From the NCBI GenBank assembly GCA_017471705.1, contig JAFUSH010000006.1, positions 1-46,316 of the forward strand: 46,316 nucleotides of DNA. Direction: 5' to 3'. Shown one piece after another: positions 2,555 to 27,534 of this stretch; positions within the stretch are counted from its first letter, which is position 1; every line of letters starts with the position of its first letter. The DNA is from Alphaproteobacteria bacterium. Lineage in GTDB: Bacteria > Pseudomonadota > Alphaproteobacteria > RF32 > CAG-239. The position numbers were made by a program, and so were the translations under genes. The notes below the pieces were generated by a model. That model was given only the letters and a program-made list of their open reading frames with translations, had not been told where the DNA came from and searched no databases.

Positions 2555-5196
2555 CTGTAACTCCCATAAGCCGGATTAAGTCCGTAACGTTGCTCTAAAA
2601 GCGGCGAAAGACCTTCGCCTTTAGAGATGTTTTTGCCGATTGCACCCTCGATTTTTTCAATTACCACATCCAAGCTGAAATCACCGTTGCCGAGATTGGT
2701 CTTGCTGACAGAGGTTTTAACTTCCGAGGCGGCATTATTGACAACATTAACGTTGACATTTACTTCCGTACCGCCGCCATCGCCGAGAGCTTTCATCTGT
2801 TCTTTGGTAAAAACACCTTCGCCACGTTTGGCGATAATTGGCACTTCATCGCCGACAATACCGCCTTTATGGAACTTTGGCACACCGCTGAACACCGCCG
2901 GACTGGCATAGGTTGTTTTCAGATTATCCGCGCCAACAATACCACCGGTATGCGCTGTTCCGAAACCCATATATGCGGAAAGGCTTGCCACAAGCGGTTG
3001 AGTAATTGACTGCCGAATTGCCAGTTTTGCAAAATCCTGAATAATAGCATTAACCAAGTCCGAAATGTTTGCTTTGCCGGTCGTAACAAATGAAACAAGC
3101 GCGTTTTCCATATTATTAAAGGCATTTCTGGCGGCACTCTCGGCAAGCGTGGCAAAGTCGTCAACTTCTTTTTTCAAACCGATAAATCCGCGTTTGAAGC
3201 CATCTTCCATTTTTTTAGAAGTATTTAAGGCAACTTCATCAGCTTTTTTAACCATACCGGCATAAACTTGGTCAATTTGCTTTTTATAGTCCTCATAACC
3301 TTTTGCGCTTTTATTGAGGTTTTTGAGTGCATTCTCTCGCCATTGCTCAGCCTTAGCCATTGCTTGCTCGTATGGCGATTTAAGTTCCAACAGTTTATTT
3401 TTAATGTCCTCAATATTGCGTTTATAGGCATTATCCGCCGATTTATCCGTTGTTTTCGGCACAATGCTCGGTGTTGGTGTCGGTGTTGTCGATTTGGTAG
3501 CTTCTTTCGGTCGTAATTCCGGATTTTCAAGATATTTAAGCTCTTGCTGAGCATTATAAGCATCTTGATCGGCGGCTTTCAACAAAAGGAGCTTATCCTG
3601 AATTTCCTTTGCTTGCGGCTGAAAATCCGGATACTCTGCCGCCACCGCCCAAATCTCTTTTTCATATTGTTCAAGACTGATTTTAGATTGCCGAAGCGTT
3701 TCCGCCCATTCTTGAGCGTAAATCTCATAATCCTGAAGCAGAGCTTTCGGCGAGTGCCTAACACGAAACGATAAACCGCCGGTGTTTTTTATTTCAGCGG
3801 TTAAGTCCTTAATGTTTTGTTTGGCTGTTTTGAGTTTTAAGCCCCATTCCGCCAGCGACATATCTTTTTGCTGTTCCGCCGAGAACTTCGCCGCTTCCTC
3901 GGTGGTGGCTTTGAGTTCATCTTGCAGTTTTTTAAGCGTTTCCGCGTGGTCGTGTGCCGCACGTTTAGCCACATCATGGCTATCTACCAACTTATAAAGA
4001 GCCATACAAGCTAAAACCGCAAGTCCAGCGGGGCCGCCAATAAGTGCAAGCGCACCGCGTAGAACACCAGCCGCCGTTGCCAGTACGCCCATTTGCACCG
4101 CCGCCAACTTTGACACATTACTCATCATAGCAATGCCGGCCACAGCCGATTTTGCCTGCAACGACATTCCGGCAAGTGAGGCTTGCACATAACCGATGCC
4201 GGCGCGAAGTAAGGTTAAACCGCCCAAAATTGCCTTTGAACCGAGCCGAACCGTCAACAATTCTATAGCTACATCTGCGTGTTTGGCTAAGAAAAAGAAC
4301 GCGTTTGCCGCCAGATTTACCGCCATTGTCAGTCCTTTACCGATAGATGTGGCGGCATCTTCTGCACCGTCAACCATATCATTAAACTGCTTTAATGCAT
4401 CCTTAATGGCGGTTGTTAATCCAGCTTCACCGATATTTCGGGCAAGTTTACCGAAAGCGTCCTCGATGTTACTCATCACACCGCCCATCGTATCCATTTG
4501 CTCTTTCATAGCTCCGGCAAATTGGACATTACCGAGCGAGCGCAGATAAGCCTCAATCGCTTTAGCGTTTTTTTCTATGGTGGTTGTTATGCCCTGAAAA
4601 GTAAAGTTAACCTTATCCTTTTCAGTAGTCGCCATGATACCGAAAGAACGGAGCGAGCGGAAGTTGAACATCACGGCATTTGACAAGGCTTCCGTAAAGT
4701 CCATAATGCCGCGCCCGAAAGCCGAAGCGGTGTTACCGTATGAAGTCAACGCTTCCATACTCGGTTCTAAGCCGAGAGCTTTTAGACGGATAAATGCCTC
4801 AACGATTTCCTCTAGCTGATACGGTGTGTCCAGCGCAAACTTTTCAATAATCGCAAACGCTTCCTTTGCGCCTTGTGCCGAGCCGGTTACGGTTTTTAAT
4901 GAGCCGGATAAGCTCTCAAACTCTTTATTTATGCTGACAATACCTTTGAAAGTCCGCATTAAACCGCTTGTGCCGAGGTAAGCACCAAACAATCCGGCGG
5001 TTTGTTTCAATATACCGTTAAAGGTCTTGGCCGTATCGCTTAAGGCAAGCAGATTGTCGTTAGCCGGTTGGATAACCTGCGTAATTTGCCGGAAAGCCTT
5101 TTGACCGTCTGCACCGAGTGTCTTAAACTCTTGGTGCACCTTGTCGCCGCCCACTGCCTCAAGTCGTATACTTAATTTTTTTGCTGTTGCTGTCAT
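2551..5196 (-). CDS. Tail tape measure protein
   Basis: 881 residues from the ATG at 5196 (GGAAAAAGA upstream); a longer reading would need a TTG start inside the upstream hairpin. Residues about 60-260 form the tape measure domain (ALDTPYQLEEIVEAFIRLKA, SYGNTASAFGRGIMDF). Hydrophobic segments follow near residues 290-420, then a long charged helical region. The C-terminus has GGIVGDEVPIIAKRGEGVFT, typical of lambda gpH-like C-termini. It sets tail length and may help DNA pass the membrane. It lies downstream of the tail chaperone genes, separated from them by an inserted regulator gene. Confidence 0.92.
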   Translation of the reverse strand: MTATAKKLSIRLEAVGGDKVHQEFKTLGADGQKAFRQITQVIQPANDNLLALSDTAKTFNGILKQTAGLFGAYLGTSGLMRTFKGIVSINKEFESLSGSLKTVTGSAQGAKEAFAIIEKFALDTPYQLEEIVEAFIRLKALGLEPSMEALTSYGNTASAFGRGIMDFTEALSNAVMFNFRSLRSFGIMATTEKDKVNFTFQGITTTIEKNAKAIEAYLRSLGNVQFAGAMKEQMDTMGGVMSNIEDAFGKLARNIGEAGLTTAIKDALKQFNDMVDGAEDAATSIGKGLTMAVNLAANAFFFLAKHADVAIELLTVRLGSKAILGGLTLLRAGIGYVQASLAGMSLQAKSAVAGIAMMSNVSKLAAVQMGVLATAAGVLRGALALIGGPAGLAVLACMALYKLVDSHDVAKRAAHDHAETLKKLQDELKATTEEAAKFSAEQQKDMSLAEWGLKLKTAKQNIKDLTAEIKNTGGLSFRVRHSPKALLQDYEIYAQEWAETLRQSKISLEQYEKEIWAVAAEYPDFQPQAKEIQDKLLLLKAADQDAYNAQQELKYLENPELRPKEATKSTTPTPTPSIVPKTTDKSADNAYKRNIEDIKNKLLELKSPYEQAMAKAEQWRENALKNLNKSAKGYEDYKKQIDQVYAGMVKKADEVALNTSKKMEDGFKRGFIGLKKEVDDFATLAESAARNAFNNMENALVSFVTTGKANISDLVNAIIQDFAKLAIRQSITQPLVASLSAYMGFGTAHTGGIVGADNLKTTYASPAVFSGVPKFHKGGIVGDEVPIIAKRGEGVFTKEQMKALGDGGGTEVNVNVNVVNNAASEVKTSVSKTNLGNGDFSLDVVIEKIEGAIGKNISKGEGLSPLLEQRYGLNPAYGSYR

Positions 5197-16349: not shown

Positions 16350-16422
16350 ACTGGACTTCCTCCTTTTTCCAAGCATTGCTGTAATTGTAAATTAACATTA
16401 ACAGTCACGAAAGGAACTCAAA

Positions 16423-16806
16423 ATGACTACAAAAAAGAAAGACTCTAAGGCGAAGAGCAAAACAACGGCCAAAAAGCAAATTTTAACTCCGGTAGCGGAA
16501 GAACCGATTGTTATGACTAAAATCGTCGAACTGCCATGCGAGCCGCTTGATGAACCGGAGACAGAGCCGGTAGAGCAACCGAAACCGGTTGAACTTACCG
16601 GATCGGATAAGCTGACCTTTATGGTTCACTTACTCAGCCGACCGGAAGGCGCAACCCTTAAAGAGATGGCTGAAGCCCTCGGGTGGAAAGAGAACTCAGT
16701 GCGCGGCGCGATGTCACTTTACGCCAAAAATCACCCAGAATACACACATTCCTCCGAAAAGGTGGACGGTGTTAGAACTTACCGCTTAACCAAAAACGGC
16801 GATTAA
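16423..16806 (+). CDS. DUF3489-domain protein
   Basis: 127 residues; the only clear plus-strand gene in the prophage. A Lys/Thr-rich start and Pro/Glu-rich linker precede a C-terminal DUF3489 domain (SRPEGATLKEMAEALGWKEN, SVRGAMS, SSEKVDGVRTYRL), a winged-helix-like fold. Ribosome binding site AAAGGAAC. The family is frequent in alphaproteobacterial mobile elements and is probably DNA-binding. It could regulate the divergent late operon; that role is inference. It has its own terminator at 16823. Confidence 0.85.
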   Translation: MTTKKKDSKAKSKTTAKKQILTPVAEEPIVMTKIVELPCEPLDEPETEPVEQPKPVELTGSDKLTFMVHLLSRPEGATLKEMAEALGWKENSVRGAMSLYAKNHPEYTHSSEKVDGVRTYRLTKNGD

Positions 16807-18116: not shown

Positions 18117-18131
18117 CGTACAATATACCGC
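18117..18131. promoter_or_regulatory. 15-base element, copy 1
   Basis: CGTACAATATACCGC, identical to 19922-19936. On the minus strand it reads GCGGTATATTGTACG, with a -10-like TATATT but no sigma-70 -35. It lies 31 bases before the C5 methyltransferase start, where a promoter or operator would sit. Confidence 0.45.
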
Positions 18132-18198
18132 ACGATTTTATAAAACGCCGGAAAGCGCATTATTTCGCCAATTGTGCGGCTGATTTCGGATATAGATA

Positions 18199-18345
18199 AA
18201 CGGGGCAGTTACGCCCCGTTTACTTGCGCCGTTGGTGGAGAACCAGAAAAGGAAGTGTGGTAGCCAAGCACTCCGACAACGGCTGAAAGTCCCGCCTTTT
18301 TGGGACTCTGTGGCTCGCTGGCGGGGCTTTGCGGCCCCGCCGTGG
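18199..18345 (-). other. Structured intergenic segment with four hairpins
   Basis: Read on the plus strand: ACGGGGC/GCCCCGT (18199-18219); a long-range GCCGTTG/CAACGGC arm enclosing a GTG-rich stem; AGTCCC/GGGACT; and the perfect 8-bp GGCGGGGC/GCCCCGCC (18323-18344) directly after the 18352-18858 gene. The density of stems suggests a terminator plus a structured RNA leader for the methyltransferase. An alternative is a decayed coding segment: one minus frame is open for about 45 codons, but it has no start or ribosome binding site. Confidence 0.45.
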
Positions 18346-18351
18346 TTTAGG

Positions 18352-18858
18352 TTAATCTCTGCGCCATATCGGCAACAAATCGCCGCTTTCGAGGTCTGAG
18401 GTGTAACCTGCCAGATCTTTAATCTCGTCTGCCGAGCATAACCGCACGCCGCCGACCACTTGTAAGCAAATTCCGTATTTTTTGCAGAGCTTGGTTAACT
18501 CTTCGCTAAATCCCTCGTAAGGGTTTGGTTTATGCTCTGGGAAGGCTTTATCGTCCACGTAGTAGCGGTAGTCTTTAACGATCCGGTCACGGGTTATCAC
18601 GCGGTCGACCGTCTCGATAAAGGTTTGGACGTTGGTTCTCAGTTCCTCAATGTATCTGTCCACGAAGTGTCTGCCCCAGCGGCTGTCCAGCAGTTCTCTG
18701 GTTTGCTCAGGTGTCAGACCGGCATTTTTTTGGAGCAGGATTGAGGTCTCTTTCCAGAGCTTTGGCATATCTCTTTTAGTCCTAAGTCCTAATCTTGCTG
18801 TTCCCCAAAATCCATGGTCTTCGTTCTCTGTCTCTAAAATTTTGTATTCTTTTACCAT
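18352..18858 (-). CDS. Unknown phage accessory protein
   Basis: 168 residues. I do not recognise the family. It is mixed charged and helical: KDMPKLWKETSILLQKNAG-like start (TKRDMPKLWKETSILLQ), ELRTNVQTFIETVDRVITRD in the middle, and a C-terminal half with LCKKYGICLQVVGGVRLC. No signal peptide or membrane segment. The ribosome binding site AGAAAAGG is part of the conserved leader repeat upstream (18867-18960), and a perfect GC hairpin follows the stop within 8 bases, so it looks like an independent unit. Confidence 0.75.
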   Translation of the reverse strand: MVKEYKILETENEDHGFWGTARLGLRTKRDMPKLWKETSILLQKNAGLTPEQTRELLDSRWGRHFVDRYIEELRTNVQTFIETVDRVITRDRIVKDYRYYVDDKAFPEHKPNPYEGFSEELTKLCKKYGICLQVVGGVRLCSADEIKDLAGYTSDLESGDLLPIWRRD

Positions 18859-18866
18859 TGTGTTTT

Positions 18867-18960
18867 TCCTTTTCTGTTTAGGTTAATGCTCGGGCTACCG
18901 TGCCTTTGCTGTCTCTATGAATGCTTGCTTTTCGGTGGAAGTCCAGCGCAATCGACATTA
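18867..18960 (-). repeat. Conserved leader repeat R1 with short peptide frame
   Basis: One of three similar leaders. On the minus strand a short frame at 18957-18895 encodes a 20-residue peptide ending STEKQAFIETAKAR then TAG, 36 bases before the gene ATG. No ATG is in this frame (a TTG is). Its partners are R2 (19731-19830) and R3 (20573-20667); differences between copies are mostly synonymous or conservative. Confidence 0.65.
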
Positions 18961-18989
18961 TTTTTTAAGAAATAATGCAGAAAGTTTCG

Positions 18990-19009
18990 GGCGGGGCGTT
19001 AACCCCGCC
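18990..19009 (-). terminator. GC-rich hairpin after the 19020-19457 gene
   Basis: Perfect 7-bp stem GGCGGGG / CCCCGCC with loop CGTTAA, starting 10 bases after the stop codon. No U-run follows, so it may be a stabilising or Rho-assisted 3-prime end rather than a full intrinsic terminator. Confidence 0.5.
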
Positions 19010-19019
19010 GGAGCTTAAG

Positions 19020-19457
19020 TTAAAGTCTGCTTATGTCGTAGCCCATGGTAGCTAAAACCTTTAATTTTTCCTCGCGGCTCGGATTTCTTTCGAACCAGCA
19101 CCAACCATCGCTTTCCGTACCGTAACCGAGGTAGCTGGTGTCGATCAGCTTTAGCTTTTCGAGAGCATCCAAAATGTCGTCGAGCACGTTTAATTCCCGT
19201 ATAATCAGTTCGTCGACGATGTCCTTGGTTACTTTTTCGTCTTGGAGCGGCCAAGTCTCGATTTCGGTCTTTACTAAGCCCCGCGTGGTCTCATCAAAAA
19301 ACCATTCGCGTATTCCGTCTTGGTTGCTCATTCCGGTGTCAAAGCTAACTCCGGCTTCGATTAATTTTTGCTCTGCTTCCCAGAAAACTTTTACCTGTGC
19401 CTCGATCATTTTTGATAAGTCGATTTTTACCACCGCGCTTCTTTTAATTATTTCCAT
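19020..19457 (-). CDS. Unknown phage accessory protein
   Basis: 145 residues from the ATG at 19457, which has AAAGGAAT in the same spacing as its neighbours; an ATG nine codons earlier has no such site. Family not recognised. It is acidic and helical, with DLSKMIEAQVKVFWEAEQKL at the start, NVLDDILDALEKLKLIDTSY in the middle and a C-terminal REEKLKVLATMGYDISRL. A cytoplasmic soluble protein is likely. It is followed by a GC hairpin, but it lacks the leader repeat seen before three other units and follows the 19518 gene closely. Confidence 0.75.
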   Translation of the reverse strand: MEIIKRSAVVKIDLSKMIEAQVKVFWEAEQKLIEAGVSFDTGMSNQDGIREWFFDETTRGLVKTEIETWPLQDEKVTKDIVDELIIRELNVLDDILDALEKLKLIDTSYLGYGTESDGWCWFERNPSREEKLKVLATMGYDISRL

Positions 19458-19487
19458 TTTTTTATTCCTTTCTTTAGCATTCATTGT

Positions 19488-19509
19488 GGCGAGGCTTGGC
19501 GGCCCCGCC
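19488..19509 (-). terminator. GC-rich hairpin after the 19518-19724 gene
   Basis: GGCGAGGC / GCCCCGCC with loop TTGGCG. The single mismatch on the plus strand becomes a G.U pair in minus-strand RNA, which suggests the structure is kept for the minus transcript. Confidence 0.5.
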
Positions 19510-19517
19510 GTTGTCCT

Positions 19518-19724
19518 TTAGTCCACATCGAACCATTCCGTGCAGGTCACCAGCAGGTGGTTATAATCGCCGCTGGTCGCTTCCTTTTGGAATTCGTCCC
19601 GCTCTTCCTTGCTCAATCCGGCGCAGCGCATTGCCGTCAGGCATCTGCCGATTATTGCGAATGCGTTGCCGTCTTGGCCAACCAGTTGCACGTGGATTTC
19701 CGGATGTTTTACTTCATTTGTCAT
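19518..19724 (-). CDS. Small conserved phage protein
   Basis: 68 residues. The pattern VQLVGQDGNAFAIIGRCLTA, then EFQKEATSGDYNHLLVTC and a W-F-D-V-D end, matches a small protein I have seen often in mobile elements and Firmicute or proteobacterial genomes, of unknown function. Ribosome binding site AAAAGGAA lies at the end of leader repeat R2. Compact and probably a single small domain. Confidence 0.75.
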   Translation of the reverse strand: MTNEVKHPEIHVQLVGQDGNAFAIIGRCLTAMRCAGLSKEERDEFQKEATSGDYNHLLVTCTEWFDVD

Positions 19725-19730
19725 TTTTCA

Positions 19731-19830
19731 GTTCCTTTTCTAATTTTGGTTAATGCTAAGGCTACCGTGCCCTTGCTAACTCAATGAATGCTTGCTTTCC
19801 GGTGGAAGTCAACTTAATAATGCACATTTT
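19731..19830 (-). repeat. Conserved leader repeat R2 with ATG-initiated leader peptide
   Basis: Here the short frame has an ATG: 19827-19762 encodes a 21-residue peptide, MCIIKLTSTGKQAFIELARA plus a final Arg, then TAG, 37 bases before the next ATG. The leader ends in the ribosome binding site of the 19518-19724 gene. No clear Shine-Dalgarno precedes the leader ATG. Confidence 0.65.
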
Positions 19831-19893
19831 TTAATTATAAGTTATTGAAAATAAATAATAATTTGAAAACAGCCAAACAACTCGACGATTATT

Positions 19894-19906
19894 CGCACGA
19901 CGTGCG
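19894..19906. promoter_or_regulatory. Short palindrome, possible operator
   Basis: CGCAC GAC GTGCG, a 5-bp inverted repeat, lies between the 15-base element at 19922 and leader repeat R2. It is short, so the evidence is modest. Confidence 0.3.
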
Positions 19907-19921
19907 ATGCAACTTTCTTGT

Positions 19922-19936
19922 CGTACAATATACCGC
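19922..19936. promoter_or_regulatory. 15-base element, copy 2
   Basis: Identical to 18117-18131 (minus strand GCGGTATATTGTACG). It lies about 95 bases upstream of leader R2, so both copies precede a minus-strand unit. It may be a phage-specific promoter or binding site. Confidence 0.45.
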
Positions 19937-19962
19937 TTAGATAATTATACTCCGAAAGGACG

Positions 19963-19987
19963 CGTGTCCGGCGATTTTCCGGACACG
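19963..19987 (-). terminator. GC-rich hairpin after the 20006-20254 gene
   Basis: Perfect 9-bp stem CGTGTCCGG / CCGGACACG with loop CGATTTT, 18 bases after the stop of the 20006-20254 gene. It closes the two-gene unit led by R3. Confidence 0.6.
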
Positions 19988-20005
19988 GCAAAGGAGAATT
20001 TTAAC

Positions 20006-20254
20006 TTATCTAATAGCGGCAATATACCATTCCGCGTGGGAATAGTTATTAAAGTTCCATTGCAAACTCAGTAAAAAGTCGGCTTCGGTCAAGTGCTTTT
20101 GCATAAATTCCGGTAGAAAAGCGTTCTTTTCGGTTTCGTGGCGAATAAAGCCCTGATAAGCCCGTTCAAACTCGGTTTTGAATTGCGCCTTAAATTCATC
20201 AAAGGAGAGCACCCGTTGTTTACGGGTGCGTTTGTTTTCAAGGGTAATCCACAT
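20006..20254 (-). CDS. Unknown small phage protein
   Basis: 82 residues, two bases after the preceding gene, so clearly cotranscribed. Rich in aromatic and charged residues (FKAQFKTEFERAYQGFIRHE, FLLSLQWNFNNYSHAEWYIA). Family not recognised; no membrane segment. Second gene of the R3-led unit. Confidence 0.7.
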   Translation of the reverse strand: MWITLENKRTRKQRVLSFDEFKAQFKTEFERAYQGFIRHETEKNAFLPEFMQKHLTEADFLLSLQWNFNNYSHAEWYIAAIR

Positions 20255-20256
20255 CG

Positions 20257-20565
20257 TTAGTCTCCCAACTTAATGCCGAGGTAGCGGCAGTAGCTTGAGC
20301 CTTCCGGATTAGCGTAAAGCGGCTGTTTATTTTTGCAAGTCAGCTCAACCACCTGAAGGTAACCGTCTTTATATCCACCTTTTCCTGTTAAAAAGCGGTA
20401 ATCCTTAAATGGATATTTACATATACAATCGTACTGTCTGGCGGTTAATTCTATCGTTTCGGCAATTTCTACTTCTTTCGCCCGTTCAGGATATCGCTCT
20501 GACATACTGATAACTTCATCAATATCTTCTGGTTTCCGGATTAAATAAGTTTTGACTGTTTTCAT
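20257..20565 (-). CDS. Unknown small phage protein
   Basis: 102 residues. The sequence VEIAETIELTARQYDCICKY, then YKDGYLQVVELTCKN, resembles small uncharacterised proteins of mobile elements; I cannot name the family. Ribosome binding site AAAGGAAT at the end of leader R3. It heads a two-gene unit with the 20006-20254 gene. Confidence 0.75.
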   Translation of the reverse strand: MKTVKTYLIRKPEDIDEVISMSERYPERAKEVEIAETIELTARQYDCICKYPFKDYRFLTGKGGYKDGYLQVVELTCKNKQPLYANPEGSSYCRYLGIKLGD

Positions 20566-20572
20566 TTTTTTA

Positions 20573-20667
20573 TTCCTTTTCTGTTTAGGTTTATGCGCTG
20601 GCTACCTTGCCTTTGCTAATTCAATGAATGCTTGCTTTTCACTTATTATCCAGTCAATTCGACATCA
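20573..20667 (-). repeat. Conserved leader repeat R3 with short peptide frame
   Basis: Third leader copy; frame 20664-20602 ends ISEKQAFIELAKAR then TAG, 36 bases before the gene ATG. Its upstream part overlaps the last codons of the ParB-methyltransferase gene (20646), so the leader extends into coding DNA in another frame. Confidence 0.65.
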
Positions 20668-21932
20668 TTTTCGGAACTTTCTGCATTATTTTCGCTTATT
20701 TCAGAAGTAATGTCATTATTTGGCAGTAGTTCCGCTTTTTTGCCGGTATATTCTTCCCAACGTTTCACAATAACGTCGCAAAACTTCGGATCTAACTCAA
20801 TTAGACGAGCGACTCGACCGGTTTTTTCGGCCGCAATTAAGGTCGAACCGGAGCCGCCGAACCCGTCTAACACGATATCTCCGAGTTTAGAGCTGTTATT
20901 TATGGCTCTTTCCACCAATTCGACCGGCTTCATGGTCGGGTGTAAGTCGTTCCGGACAGGCTTGTTATACTGCCAAACATCCGCTTGATCACGATCACCG
21001 CACCAGTAGTGCTTTTTATCCGCGCCCCAGCCGTAAAGAATAGGCTCGTATTGCCGCTGATAATCCGCCCGACCAAGCGTGAAGGTGTTTTTCGCCCAGA
21101 TGATAAACGTCGACCATTTACCGCCGGCCGCCACAAACGAGGAATAAAGTGTGTGCAGTTCCGATGAGCTCATGCAGACGTAGGCGGCTCCGTTGTTGAA
21201 CATCATTAAATTGGAAAGGCTGTCGGTCAAAAATTGCCCGAAGTCATCGCCGAGGTTGTCGTTCATAATCGTGCGATTATGGTTCGGCGAGGAGTGGTAA
21301 CGGAGCTTGTCTTTCATGGTCGCTCCATAGTTAACGTTATACGGCGGATCGGTAAAGACCATATCGGCCACGTCGTTCCCCATTAGTTTCTGCACGTCGT
21401 CATACATCGTGGTGTCGCCGCAGAGCAGTTTATGCTTGCCTAAAATCCAAATGTCGCCGTGCTTGGTTATCGGCTCAACCGGTGCATCAGGCACTTCGTC
21501 CTCGTCGGTATTACCGACGGATTGCTCTTCGCCGAGGTGCTGAATTTCCGCCAACTCGTCCGGATTAAATCCGAGCAAGTCCAAATCAAAATCAGCCTCG
21601 GAAAGTTCGGCCATTTCAAGTGCGAGCATTTCTTCATCCCATCCGGCATTCAGGGCGATTTTATTGTCGGCAATGACTAAAGCCTTGCGTTGAGTTTCGG
21701 TTAAGTCAGGCAGACAGATAACCGGCACTTCGGTAAAACCGAGCCGTTGGGCGGCGAGCAAACGACCGTGACCGGCGATGATGACATTGTCGCTACCGAT
21801 TAAAATCGGGTTGGTAAAACCGAATTCTTTTATGCTTGCCATAATCTGAGCGATTTGCTCTTCATTATGCGTGCGTGAGTTTCGGGCATACGGAATTAAA
21901 TCCGCAACCGGAAAAGATGCGTGAAAATCCAT
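20646..21932 (-). CDS. ParB-domain DNA methyltransferase (beta class)
   Basis: 428 residues from the ATG at 21932 (AAAGGA upstream); a longer frame runs through the repeat-rich leader but lacks a start signal. Residues 1-100 are a ParB/Srx-like domain with IIAGHGRLLAAQRLG (51-65). Residues 155-400 are an N6-adenine or N4-cytosine methyltransferase with motif IV TDPPY (194-198) before motif I DGFGGSGST (356-364), the beta-class order. The last 25 residues are low complexity and acidic. Such fusions are common in phages. No cognate nuclease is nearby. It probably modifies phage DNA. Confidence 0.93.
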   Translation of the reverse strand: MDFHASFPVADLIPYARNSRTHNEEQIAQIMASIKEFGFTNPILIGSDNVIIAGHGRLLAAQRLGFTEVPVICLPDLTETQRKALVIADNKIALNAGWDEEMLALEMAELSEADFDLDLLGFNPDELAEIQHLGEEQSVGNTDEDEVPDAPVEPITKHGDIWILGKHKLLCGDTTMYDDVQKLMGNDVADMVFTDPPYNVNYGATMKDKLRYHSSPNHNRTIMNDNLGDDFGQFLTDSLSNLMMFNNGAAYVCMSSSELHTLYSSFVAAGGKWSTFIIWAKNTFTLGRADYQRQYEPILYGWGADKKHYWCGDRDQADVWQYNKPVRNDLHPTMKPVELVERAINNSSKLGDIVLDGFGGSGSTLIAAEKTGRVARLIELDPKFCDVIVKRWEEYTGKKAELLPNNDITSEISENNAESSENDVELTG

Positions 21933-22137: not shown

Positions 22138-23145
22138 CTAACCTGAAAACAGCCCATCGCGACAGAGTTTTGTAAACACCGGACGGTTCAGCCCAAGCTT
22201 GGCAATAATCTCGGAAGGTTTATCCGAAATTGAAAGCGTTGTGAACTGCGGCACACCACGCTTGACTGTCTTTACCACCGCGCTCGGCAACTCCGAACGT
22301 CCGATGCACGAAGAGAGATAAACAAAGCACTCGTCATTGTCTTTAAGGTAATCCAATGCCAGCTTGCGTGCGTAGATGTTGAGTGTCACATCAGACTTGC
22401 TTGCATCCTTAGTCCACGGACTGCCGCCGCCAACCGGAGCTGATGCCGAGTAAAAATCACAAGCGAGCTTCCGTCCGGTCACACCGCAGTCTGCGATGGA
22501 TGAGTGACGTTTGTATGTTCCCGTTCCGTTGACGATGATGTTCTCCGGTTCTTCACCCAGTGCACGGATAATAAATGTCGTGAGGTCAACCTCTTTAAGC
22601 ATTGGAATTGCCACGATAACCGTGTCCACGCCGCTTAATTCGTTGAGTGTAATCTGCGTTTTAATATCAATGCCGAGGTGGATGTTCTGCAGAGCGTATT
22701 CATAAAGCGCACGGCACAGTTTGCACGCAAGATACTGCTCGCGGCTGATATTGCCGACACCTTGGCAAGCATAGCCGACAAACACGCCTTGGTCGCCCCA
22801 GCCATCTTGTTCAACACCGGCAGAGATGTCTGCCGATTGTTGCCCGATGAAGTTGATAACCTGAACCTTGCTCGGCTCAATGGCATTATCGTGCCAGCAC
22901 ACCGAGTAGTATGCATCGTAACCGATTTCCGCGAGGGCATCCAGCACGTAATCATTGACTTTTGCCAAGCTGACGTTGCCTTTGACTTCTCCGCCGAGAA
23001 CAACGATGTTGTCCTTAATCATCACTTCAACCGCGTAACGAACATTTTTATCTTGCTCAATCAGCCGGTCTAAAATGTAACTGGAAATATAGTCCGCCGT
23101 TTTATCAGGGTGTCCGAGCGACACCGCTTCCGCCGTTTTAATCAT
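22138..23145 (-). CDS. Phage-encoded S-adenosylmethionine synthetase (divergent MetK)
   Basis: 335 residues, shorter than the usual 380-400. The ATP/methionine site GHPDK (11-15), QSADISAGVE...GDQG (103-120), DCGVTGRK (219-226) and GGGSPWTKDASKSD (239-252) match the MetK signatures including the catalytic His, Asp, Arg and Lys positions. It makes SAM from ATP and methionine. It lies between the early genes and two methyltransferases, so the phage may secure its own methyl donor. Ribosome binding site AAGGAAAC. The usual GGGAFSGKD loop is altered to GGGSPWTKD. Confidence 0.9.
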   Translation of the reverse strand: MIKTAEAVSLGHPDKTADYISSYILDRLIEQDKNVRYAVEVMIKDNIVVLGGEVKGNVSLAKVNDYVLDALAEIGYDAYYSVCWHDNAIEPSKVQVINFIGQQSADISAGVEQDGWGDQGVFVGYACQGVGNISREQYLACKLCRALYEYALQNIHLGIDIKTQITLNELSGVDTVIVAIPMLKEVDLTTFIIRALGEEPENIIVNGTGTYKRHSSIADCGVTGRKLACDFYSASAPVGGGSPWTKDASKSDVTLNIYARKLALDYLKDNDECFVYLSSCIGRSELPSAVVKTVKRGVPQFTTLSISDKPSEIIAKLGLNRPVFTKLCRDGLFSG

Positions 23146-24597: not shown

Positions 24598-25086
24598 TCA
24601 CAAATTTTTCATTTTTTTGAAAAACTTGTAGATTGTTTCTTTGCTGATATGCAATTGTCGGGATATCTGATCCACGGTATATCCCACCATAATCAAGTAA
24701 AGAGTCTGCTTTAGCTTGATATTATCTGCTTTATCGAAAATGTCGTGAATAGTTGCACGATTGATGGCATTATTGTGAACTGTCTCGTCATAATAAAAAA
24801 AATCCTCATTGAACGTTTCGTAGTCCAATGAGGATGTCAGGTGCGATCTGGTTCGCTTTCGTTTTCGTAGCAGTTTGTATGATCGCAGTTGAAGCGCGTG
24901 CACCACTAACGCTTCATCAATATCAGGCACTTTATAATACTGTTCAAGATAATAAAGCAGGAGATCTTGCATAATGTCTTCGCGATCTTCGTAATTGAAA
25001 TATTGGGTTGAAATCAGTCTACGCGTTTGCGTATAAACCGTTAATCGGACATACCGTGGTAGTCCGCTGAAAATGTCAAGATTCAT
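24598..25086 (-). CDS. Sigma-factor-like HTH protein
   Basis: 162 residues. The central part (YEDREDIMQDLLLYYLEQYY) resembles sigma region 2 and the C-terminus (GYTVDQISRQLHISKETIYK) is a region-4-type helix-turn-helix. Size and layout fit a phage sigma-70-like transcription factor, which could redirect host RNA polymerase. Ribosome binding site AGAGAGG. It is separated from the serine recombinase by 190 bases of AT-rich DNA. Confidence 0.7.
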   Translation of the reverse strand: MNLDIFSGLPRYVRLTVYTQTRRLISTQYFNYEDREDIMQDLLLYYLEQYYKVPDIDEALVVHALQLRSYKLLRKRKRTRSHLTSSLDYETFNEDFFYYDETVHNNAINRATIHDIFDKADNIKLKQTLYLIMVGYTVDQISRQLHISKETIYKFFKKMKNL

Positions 25087-25279: not shown

Positions 25280-26911
25280 TTAATCTAAAACTGTAAAACC
25301 GAATTGTTTAACTTGGTCGTCCCAAATAGGAGGAATTGGATTTCTGAGTAAATTCCGCAGATACAATTTTGGTGGTTGATGACCTTTTAAGATGGTTCGG
25401 ATAATTGCCGGTGACAGTGAAGTAAGGCGAATTAGTCGGCTGACACAAGTTGGATCTTGATCCTCTCTTGCCGCCAAATCAGCTATACTTAATTTTGTTG
25501 TATCAAGCAATTTTTGATATTTAAATCCGAGGCAGATGCTTTTTATCAATTCATTATCAAAGTGTGGCTCAGTAGACATATTCTCCGGCAGACGAATTTC
25601 CGTCCGACCTTTGTGTTTTACAAACGGCATTGGCAATACCGTTTGGTGTCCTGTCGTACTTTGTAGCAAAGTTTCAGATAAAAGACTCAAACCTAGGTCA
25701 GTCCAGTTAATTTCCATTGTGTCGTGATTGACCGTGACACCGGTAATAACCAATTTCATTAAAAGGTGCTTTTGTCTGTCTGGCATTTTATAAAGAACCT
25801 TTTCCGGTGTGCGCAGTACTCGAAGAAGTTCCATTGTTTTATTTGGAGCAATTTTTTCAACCAGAGCTTGGAATACCTTTGGATCTTGGAAGAGTTGCGA
25901 CACGATTTTGATCATACATTCATCCATCGCCGCCAGAGGAACTGAACCATTTGTACATTTGTGGTGTCCGTACATTTTAGCGGTAACTGAAGTATAATAA
26001 TAACGCTTAACACCATGACCTTGACTTGCGGTGGGTGTCATCGTGGAGTGGCAGCATCCGCATGTCAGCAACCCTCGCATAATACCAACCTCGTTGTTAC
26101 TGTATAGACAAGCGTGTTGATTTTTTGGCTTTGAGGTACTTACTTGCTGTGCGGCATTAAATAATGACTCGCTGATTATCGCTTCGTGTTGGCCATCGTA
26201 AAGCACACCCTGGTGTTTTACTTTTCCGATATAAATAGTGTTTTTAAGCATGCGGTCTATTGAAGAGCGTGGAAATGTTTTCATTCCGGCTTCCTCTAAT
26301 AATTTTCCCACCGCTTGCGGCGATTTATATTCCAGATATTTTTCAAACATAAATTTGATAACTTTCGCTTCTTCCGGCTTTACAACCAATTTGCGATTAA
26401 TAGGTTCATAACCGTACGGCACGCAACCACCCATCCACATTCCTTTCTTTTTTGAAGCGGCTACCTTATCACGAATGCGCTCTCCGCTGATTTCACGTTC
26501 AAACTGTGCAAAGGACAGCAGCATATTTAAGGTCAGCCTGCCCATACTGTCAGCAGTGTTAAAATTTTGTGTAACCGATACAAACGAGCACTTATATTTA
26601 TCAAAAATATCAACCATCTTGGCAAAGTCGGTAAGTGAGCGGGTAAGACGGTCAATTTTATAAACCACAATCATATTTACTTTGCCTTTGGCAACGTCGT
26701 TCAATAATCGCTGAAGTGCCGGTCGGTTCATATTACCACCTGAGTAGCCACCGTCATCGTAATGCTCGTCAATCAACTTCCAGCCTTGGTGTTTTTGACT
26801 TTTGATAAAGTTCTCACCGGAATCACGTTGTGCTTCGAGTGTGTTGTATTCTTTCTCCAAGCCTTCATCCGTTGATTTTCTGGTATAAACCGCACACTTA
26901 ATTTCTTCCAT
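25280..26911 (-). CDS. Large serine recombinase (phage integrase)
   Basis: 543 residues. N-terminal resolvase domain with VYTRKST (catalytic Ser13), YKIDRLTRS (85-92) and FAQFERE..GERIRD (134-148). Then the recombinase domain (GCVPYGYEPINRKLVVKPEE), a zinc ribbon (LLTCGCCHSTM at 281-291 and HHKC at 316-319) and a long C-terminal region. It integrates and excises the element by serine chemistry. It starts 2 bases after the DUF2924 gene, an arrangement common in alphaproteobacterial prophages. Coding looks intact. Confidence 0.95.
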   Translation of the reverse strand: MEEIKCAVYTRKSTDEGLEKEYNTLEAQRDSGENFIKSQKHQGWKLIDEHYDDGGYSGGNMNRPALQRLLNDVAKGKVNMIVVYKIDRLTRSLTDFAKMVDIFDKYKCSFVSVTQNFNTADSMGRLTLNMLLSFAQFEREISGERIRDKVAASKKKGMWMGGCVPYGYEPINRKLVVKPEEAKVIKFMFEKYLEYKSPQAVGKLLEEAGMKTFPRSSIDRMLKNTIYIGKVKHQGVLYDGQHEAIISESLFNAAQQVSTSKPKNQHACLYSNNEVGIMRGLLTCGCCHSTMTPTASQGHGVKRYYYTSVTAKMYGHHKCTNGSVPLAAMDECMIKIVSQLFQDPKVFQALVEKIAPNKTMELLRVLRTPEKVLYKMPDRQKHLLMKLVITGVTVNHDTMEINWTDLGLSLLSETLLQSTTGHQTVLPMPFVKHKGRTEIRLPENMSTEPHFDNELIKSICLGFKYQKLLDTTKLSIADLAAREDQDPTCVSRLIRLTSLSPAIIRTILKGHQPPKLYLRNLLRNPIPPIWDDQVKQFGFTVLD

Positions 26912-26913
26912 CG

Positions 26914-27312
26914 CTATACTCCGAAAAATACTTGTCCCGATATTTTACGTCCCGTTATTACTCGTGCCACCGCACCGAGCGATTTATAAACCTCGCCATC
27001 CATTTCAAAACCACCGTTAACAACACGCACTTTGTAGGTCGCGCCCTTATACTTTCTGATATACTCAATACCTGAAACCATTTTTTGTGTGCTAATTTCT
27101 TTAACATCCATATTTTCAAGCATTCGGCGTGTTTTGTTATCCAGCCCGCCGAAACGCATTTCTTGGAGTTTGTATGTAATCCGCCACACATAATATTCTT
27201 TGCGAGTGGAAGTTGTCGGCACGTTAAATAGTGCGTTGTAATATTTTCTCAGCTCTTCAAAAGAGAGGAGTGGAATTTTTTTCAAATCAATATTCAAGTC
27301 CACCTTAATCAT
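26914..27312 (-). CDS. DUF2924 protein linked to serine recombinase
   Basis: 132 residues. The pattern LSFEELRKYYNALFN, then RITYKLQEMRFGGLDNKTRR and a C-terminal GGFEMDGEVYKSLGAVARVI followed by TGRKISGQVFFG, is DUF2924 (the usual ending is ITGt..sGp.FFG). These proteins nearly always precede serine recombinases and may help DNA recognition or directionality; that role is not proven. Starts by ATGA overlap with the tiny upstream ORF. Confidence 0.9.
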   Translation of the reverse strand: MIKVDLNIDLKKIPLLSFEELRKYYNALFNVPTTSTRKEYYVWRITYKLQEMRFGGLDNKTRRMLENMDVKEISTQKMVSGIEYIRKYKGATYKVRVVNGGFEMDGEVYKSLGAVARVITGRKISGQVFFGV

Positions 27313-27383
27313 TTTGTGTCTCCTTTGTTTTCTTCAATCAGTAGAACAACTGCTTCAAAAATTAAATTAATTATGTTATCCAT
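27309..27383 (-). CDS. 24-residue ORF upstream of DUF2924
   Basis: MDNIINLIFEAVVLLIEENK followed by four residues. It overlaps both neighbours: ATGGATAA with the 27376-27534 ORF and ATGA with DUF2924. Ribosome binding site AGAGGTGACC. The hydrophobic helix could be a small membrane peptide, or the ORF may exist mainly to couple translation. Confidence 0.5.
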   Translation of the reverse strand: MDNIINLIFEAVVLLIEENKGDTK

Positions 27384-27534
27384 TGGTCACCTCTTGAGTA
27401 ACACCAATGCTTGGAATTTTTTCTTTATCCAGTAAATTCGACACTTTCCCGCCATTTTCTTGCTCTTCTAAAAGAGTAGCAACCGGCAAGAGAAGTAAAT
27501 CAATTAGAGCTTCAAAATCATTGTCTGCTACCAT
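27376..27534 (-). CDS. 52-residue ORF heading the recombination operon
   Basis: Starts MVADNDFEALIDLLLLPVAT with ribosome binding site AAAGGAAAAA. Acidic and short; family not recognised. It overlaps the next ORF and is preceded by the 31-base leader element shared with the early operon. Position implies it is the first gene of the integrase operon. Confidence 0.55.
   Translation of the reverse strand: MVADNDFEALIDLLLLPVATLLEEQENGGKVSNLLDKEKIPSIGVTQEVTNG

Follow-up and report, generated by a model that had tools for sequence, protein, structure and literature searches.

Phages keep gaining genes of unknown use, and how these come under immediate control is an open question. It is raised by a 2.55-kb island (positions 18117-20667) in a prophage of an alphaproteobacterium, where five small genes lie between a ParB-methyltransferase gene and a C5-methyltransferase gene. 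The whole stretch analysed, hereafter the window, is the 46,316-nt contig JAFUSH010000006.1 of assembly GCA_017471705.1 (G000:C52), one contig of a 1.8-Mb genome. We think it somewhat probable that the island consists of promoter cassettes that shuffle like the promoter early stem-loop (PeSL) cassettes of T4-like phages and are held by one antisense RNA resembling C4 and OppZ. The more specific proposal, that every acquired gene is marked by a leader that is both promoter and target of a single antisense RNA from the array end, is offered tentatively.

A leader of about 116 nt occurs three times in the island, each time on the minus strand, and the other two copies show 69% and 78% identity to the one at 18849-18964. 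Copy 1 (20556-20671) overlaps the 3' end of the ParB-methyltransferase gene and precedes p102; the TGGA of its promoter-like element lies at 20652 and is followed by a 5' untranslated region (UTR) block, AGCAAAGGCAAGGTAGCC...GCA, and a Shine-Dalgarno (SD) sequence. Copy 2 (19716-19831, element at 19812) precedes p68 and copy 3 (18849-18964, element at 18945) precedes p168, while p82 and p154 are the second genes of their units. GC-rich hairpins, also on the minus strand, were found after p82 (19963-19987), between p68 and p154 (19488-19510, with one G-U pair on the minus strand), after p154 (18990-19009) and after p168 (18319-18342). An earlier reading of the DNA, made from the sequence only, had described units of leader, gene and hairpin for all five genes; its four hairpins were recovered, whereas the leader is present in three copies only. 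Eight GC-rich hairpins of at least 7 bp occur in the window and five of these fall in the island (including one within p82 and one that is the terminator of the RNA candidate described below), a number reached by 0 of 300 shuffles (mean 0.16).

The leader has two parts, the promoter-like element and the UTR block, and the latter is found on the cassette genes. The element, ACTGGA-N12-TCCAAGCATTCATTG, spans 31 nt in two blocks. The consensus from the aligned leaders and 57 non-redundant copies is AC-TGGA-(C/T)-N-TCCAAGCATTCATTG, in which the columns of the search pattern are conserved through hit selection and the flanking AC and an upstream TGCA are not. The element is not specific to the island, a point missing from the sequence-only reading: the prophage carries five copies, of which the two outside the cassette units have no UTR block. 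One of these (16352-16422, plus strand) precedes the DUF3489 gene (16423-16806), and the other (27313-27431, minus strand) heads an operon of DUF2924 (26914-27312) and serine integrase (25280-26911) genes. In a weight-matrix scan of the window the five sites, all of which belonged to the training set, scored 37-50, against -6 for the next best site and a maximum of 5.1 in 40 shuffles. The DUF3489 copy was also recovered when the region upstream of that gene was compared by BLAST (E 4e-8 to L115). The leader element pattern gave two matches, and none in 100 shuffles. With up to two mismatches it was found in 56 of 152 related genomes of the family (some of the matches with two mismatches look like chance), compared with four matches in all over the 152 genomes for a reversed-pattern control. 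The genomes with the element are mostly metagenome-assembled genomes of uncultured gut Alphaproteobacteria, and the genome of the window, to judge by its kinship, is probably another. At least eight unrelated protein families are encoded behind it, with the element on the strand of the gene and 23-91 nt from its core to the end of the start codon. From the two blocks, near-constant spacing, fixed strand and place at operon heads, we infer that the element is a phage-specific promoter whose copies form one prophage-wide set, including the integrase operon and DUF3489.

Two other readings of the leader were discarded. A frame encoding KQAFIE(L/T)AKAR is open in the three window copies and interrupted by stops or indels in relatives; because it is broken there, we rejected the leader as a coding fossil. 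Pairing of TGGA with TCCA as an RNA hairpin was set aside, the TCCA arm being AGCA in several copies. The element core AGCATTCATTG also occurs inverted at 19476-19486 (plus strand), upstream of p154 where p154 is a second gene.

The sequence-only reading had proposed a comparison with related prophages, expecting units to be swapped while the leader is kept, and this is what we found; the same five genes in fixed order with structural roles, which it had named as the contrary outcome, were not seen in the related prophages. Reading from the ParB-methyltransferase to the C5-methyltransferase or TerS gene and writing [P] for the element, the order is [P]p102 p82 [P]p68 p154 [P]p168 in the window and in G007, [P]p102 p82 [P]p132 [P]p154 [P]p168-like in G012:C119, [P]p102 p82 [P]p132 [P]X122-p154-like [P]X84 [P]p168-like in L224, [P]p102 p82 [P]p132 [P]p168 in L166, [P]p132 [P]p168 [P]p154-like in L069 and [P]p68 p154-like [P]p168 [P]p154-like in L071. 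Between G012:C119 and G007, 2,359 nt are kept at 88%, ending 15 nt inside the slot gene; a 132-aa gene replaces p68, and similarity resumes at 90%, 16 nt before p154, which has a leader of its own in G012:C119. The start codon is where the break-points of exchange lie. Similar borders would let homologous recombination swap or insert genes exactly at this point, a route that we propose for the exchange observed. In other relatives p102, X98, p168, X133 and p68, or some of these, form a compact operon holding 0 to 2 elements. In L055 an internal deletion has left an open frame (3664-3930) that opens as p102 and ends as p168. The roughly 280 nt that separate the ParB-methyltransferase stop from the leader in L052 hold an insertion like a miniature inverted-repeat transposable element, which is bounded by terminal inverted repeats and directly precedes the promoter-like element. 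An IS110-like transposase gene (named by eye) lies at 579-1532 of L051, between the genes for the S-adenosylmethionine (SAM) synthetase-like protein and the ParB-methyltransferase.

Downstream of the last cassette gene we identified a candidate structured RNA (18194-18316, minus strand), absent from the sequence-only reading, which is composed of a hairpin, a stem with a leader-complementary loop and a terminator hairpin (18197-18222). The three-hairpin stretch is conserved after the last cassette in L224, L071, L166 and L069; the terminator follows the last gene, with a U-run that is clear only in L071. In its stems 89.9% of cells are paired, a percentage reached by 2 of 500 shuffles, and five pairs are changed on both sides (compensatory), a number reached by 15 of 500. 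The large loop holds TTGGCTACC and a CU-rich segment, which match the GGTAGCC and the SD of the leaders, and is complementary to the UTR block and ribosome-binding sites of its own cassettes, with duplexes of -23 to -28 kcal/mol compared with an average of -12 kcal/mol for 241 background UTRs. The window values are -28.1, -23.1 and -26.6 kcal/mol, the weakest of which is reached by two of the 241 background UTRs; the corresponding counts are 0/241 in L224 and 5/241 in L166. For the two non-cassette element genes of the prophage the duplexes (-9.7 and -11.7) are no better than background. Matching is also lineage-specific, over 13 nt in each case: AGAAAGGAACATT pairs with one leader in L166 and AAAGAAAGGATAA with the SD of its own lineage in L069, where the loop lacks TGGCTACC and GGTAGCC is gone from two of the three leaders. 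In these examples the loop has changed where the leaders have changed.

The RNA candidate is present in all five readable islands with at least three leaders and in none of 14 with fewer, a count drawn from 25 loci that leaves out L049 (masked run), L188 (no methyltransferase match) and L050, L051, L052 and L114 (cut by a contig end or truncated), includes L224 although it ends in the C5-methyltransferase, and contains near-copies among the 14 (L165 with L170, L072 with L101). A search of Rfam with the candidate gave a single match at E<=1, to CC0196, which falls short of the cut-off of that family. A scan with an RNA model gave matches in 37 of the 152 genomes at E<=0.01, only three of them above 36 bits; the others are taken as terminator noise. 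In viral contigs the RNA pattern occurs in four stretches, one being L166 and three, without a model match, looking like coding sequence, and the UTR-block pattern was not found in these contigs.

In the mechanism that we propose, promoter activity and RNA action are predictions, set beside the observed complementarity of the loop and covariation of the stem. Each unit would open with the phage-specific promoter-like element, followed by the 5' UTR that the units have in common, then one or two small accessory genes and, at its end, a GC-rich hairpin that may insulate or terminate it. The last cassette transcript would probably give rise to the RNA from its 3' end, and the RNA may pair with all cassette leaders, damping or timing translation whatever gene occupies the slot. 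If this is true, a newly acquired gene falls under the control of the phage immediately. The array offers a testable answer to the opening question, a common leader with one RNA addressing every unit, in which a single regulatory hold may persist.

PeSL cassettes of T4-like phages were reportedly treated by Arbiol in 2010 and Comeau in 2014. As described in a paper that cites this work (PMC4503421), these cassettes have a stem-loop and promoter-like repeat at gene borders, where genes are shuffled, and the island shares the stem-loop and promoter-like repeat at borders, the variable region and the exchange of genes at the motif. It differs in belonging to a temperate prophage with a serine integrase and another promoter-like sequence, rather than to a T4-like phage with early promoters, and in having at its end an RNA candidate with complementarity to the leaders; it works like PeSL cassettes and is not a member of that family. 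Start-associated sequences and their extended forms (SAS/ESAS) in cluster K mycobacteriophages are likewise short conserved sequences ahead of unrelated gene starts, and have been suggested to act in initiation (PMC3203893). The SAS is a 13-bp SD-like sequence, GGGATAGGAGCCC, at the start codon, whereas the island element is 31 nt in two blocks, with a UTR block added in cassette units; its consensus differs, and we do not count it among the SAS. The C4 antisense RNA of phages P1 and P7 has two stretches of complementarity, one to an upstream site and one to its target's ribosome-binding site (PMC5320573), an arrangement also found in the GGTAGCC-matching and SD-matching segments of our candidate, although the latter has no Rfam family match, one loop in place of two and several interchangeable targets. 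As with OppZ and CarZ, small autoregulatory RNAs from 3' UTRs that pair with the transcripts of their own operon (PMC7398697), the candidate lies at an operon 3' end and is predicted to pair with its own transcripts; unlike them, it is encoded by a phage, and its predicted targets are several units with a leader in common. We did not see the whole combination in the literature on its parts, in a search aimed at the parts and not at the combination, which is no proof of absence.

Several observations weigh against the proposed mechanism. Most hairpins in the window have no U-run in gene direction. The loop duplex is less exceptional in L069 (10/241) and weak in L071 (38/241), where the longest complementary run fails to reach significance (221 of 1000 shuffles). 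The CU-rich segment of the loop will pair with many SDs, and a single simple duplex cannot accommodate both complementary segments of the loop, on the UTR block and on the SD. In L072 and L101 a block-like leader (GGATAGCC) is seen with no RNA candidate. The five loci that carry the RNA may have a common ancestor, so that they and the 14 others are not 19 independent tests. A simpler account is that of PeSL-like promoter cassettes only, in which the RNA would be the terminator region of the array and the complementarity a functionless inverted leader fragment: read backwards, the loop resembles the leader block, as expected of an inverted copy, and PeSLs are said to work without such an RNA. 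We nevertheless rate this account as rather improbable, given that the stem covaries, that the loop tracks lineage-specific SD sequences and that, among the loci searched, the RNA is confined to multi-leader islands. Promoter activity of the element is itself open to challenge, its -10-like part ATTCAT being far from TATAAT, and a sigma-70 promoter scan gave no excess of promoters. Together with the long conserved block (CCAAGCATTCATTG) near start codons, these two results favour an operator or a 5'-UTR/translation element, similar to the mycobacteriophage sequences, with transcription from upstream promoters; this seems to us unlikely, as the element has two blocks with near-constant spacing and a variable middle, is strand-locked and heads operons, including the divergent one of DUF3489. 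It is very improbable that the repeats are sites at which a dedicated site-specific recombinase moves cassettes in the manner of an integron. Units are exchanged at the element, which also precedes the DUF2924-serine recombinase genes, but its orientation ahead of start codons is constant, also at genes that do not move, and homologous recombination suffices.

A further question is what the cassettes carry. The sequence-only reading had suggested an accessory or counter-defence island, and the accessory slot is supported in part, the leader-p102 unit also bordering islands with type I restriction-modification (RM) and retron genes. In a defence library search (PADLOC) that covered 30 selected cargo proteins only, type I RM and a retron III-A partner were recognised in the cargo that adjoins units of element, p102 and XRKY; by eye, this bordering cargo also has reverse transcriptase, HATPase-C5 methylase and CBASS-like (cyclic oligonucleotide-based antiphage signalling system) genes. 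In G089:C7 such cargo lies between p102 and DUF3489-TerS-sigma-integrase, and the lack of TerL or portal matches suggests a phage satellite. We regard the slot's accessory and defence-related character as real. An inhibitory action of the small proteins on host restriction or on other defences is conceivable, if doubtful: the island lies between two phage methyltransferases, adjoining the SAM synthetase-like gene, and the leader-p102 unit flanks defence islands, but no known inhibitor was matched by family or by fold, and PADLOC found nothing convincing among the five. Jointly with the proposal of leaders addressed by one RNA, and held as tentatively, defence-cargo islands would share the promoter unit and may respond to the phage sigma factor. 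In gut Alphaproteobacteria the element makes it possible to look for accessory genes by their leader rather than by homology, both in prophages and in defence islands close to them. Candidate satellites, integrase-sigma-TerS-DUF3489 islands without TerL or portal matches and with RM, retron and CBASS-like cargo beside element and p102, are L252 (G089:C7), L253 (G098:C3), L206 and L237 (G091:C3), the G091 candidate being without integrase and sigma.

A prophage-encoded sigma factor of the extracytoplasmic function (ECF) type (24598-25086, minus strand), behind the integrase, is the candidate reader of the element. Sigma regions 2 and 4 are both present; the protein matches phrog_1740 (E 1.8e-5 over 18-160), and Foldseek returned ECF sigma factors with probability up to 0.99 and E 5e-3 at best. 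Structure comparison gave Z 7.8 for region 4 (root-mean-square deviation 1.3 over 55 residues) and Z 6.7 for region 2 (3.9 over 78 residues), Z values that stand among those of unrelated proteins of like Z. An ECF-type sigma gene was found in 25 of the 152 genomes, and many element-bearing prophages have one. Against the proposed regulation, no sigma gene was detected in some of the element-bearing stretches (G091, G115, G025, G175 and G067), which weakens the ECF sigma factor as sole reader.

The five genes, which the sequence-only reading had rightly placed between the two methyltransferases, all lie on the minus strand: p102 (20257-20565), first gene of unit 1 and the commonest gene behind the element; p82 (20006-20254), second gene of that unit; p68 (19518-19724), in whose place G012:C119 has the 132-aa gene; p154 (19020-19484), second gene of unit 2 in the window; and p168 (18352-18858). 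Third codon positions hold most of the differences between the window and G007 (10 of 12 in p68, 31 of 42 in p154), which makes them look like real genes. The description of the five as carrying no recognised domain agrees with our searches: no Pfam family scored above its own cut-off, and all PHROG matches are of 'unknown function' (p168, phrog_8020, 6e-14; p68, phrog_1933, 2.5e-25; p82, phrog_34337, 9e-17; p102, phrog_21303, 1.4e-4). Profiles of p68 and p168 had no sequence match in the PDB, and peptide patterns of p154 and p168 had none in viral contigs. Structure prediction, proposed for all five, was run for p168; the model (predicted local distance difference test score 86) had no fold match in the PDB, and its best viral structure match is an uncharacterised protein. 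Relatives of p68 occur in 212 phage records, from Listeria, Mycobacterium, Arthrobacter, Campylobacter and others, with 38-53% identity among the matches listed and function unknown in these records.

The packaging genes follow shortly downstream of the cassette island. Read along the minus strand, the prophage has DUF2924, serine integrase, the ECF-type sigma factor, DUF6291, DUF6362 and the SAM synthetase-like gene, and continues with the ParB-methyltransferase, the island and the C5-methyltransferase, followed by packaging and structural genes, so assigned from gene order; the DUF3489 gene, unlike the rest of the row, is on the plus strand. The SAM synthetase-like gene (phrog_1569, 22138-23145) is diverged, adjoins the methyltransferase and is kept in many related prophages. 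An exact 15-nt repeat, CGTACAATATACCGC, occurs at 18117-18131 and 19922-19936, one copy lying upstream of the C5-methyltransferase gene, and similar sequence is retained in L071, L224 and L069.

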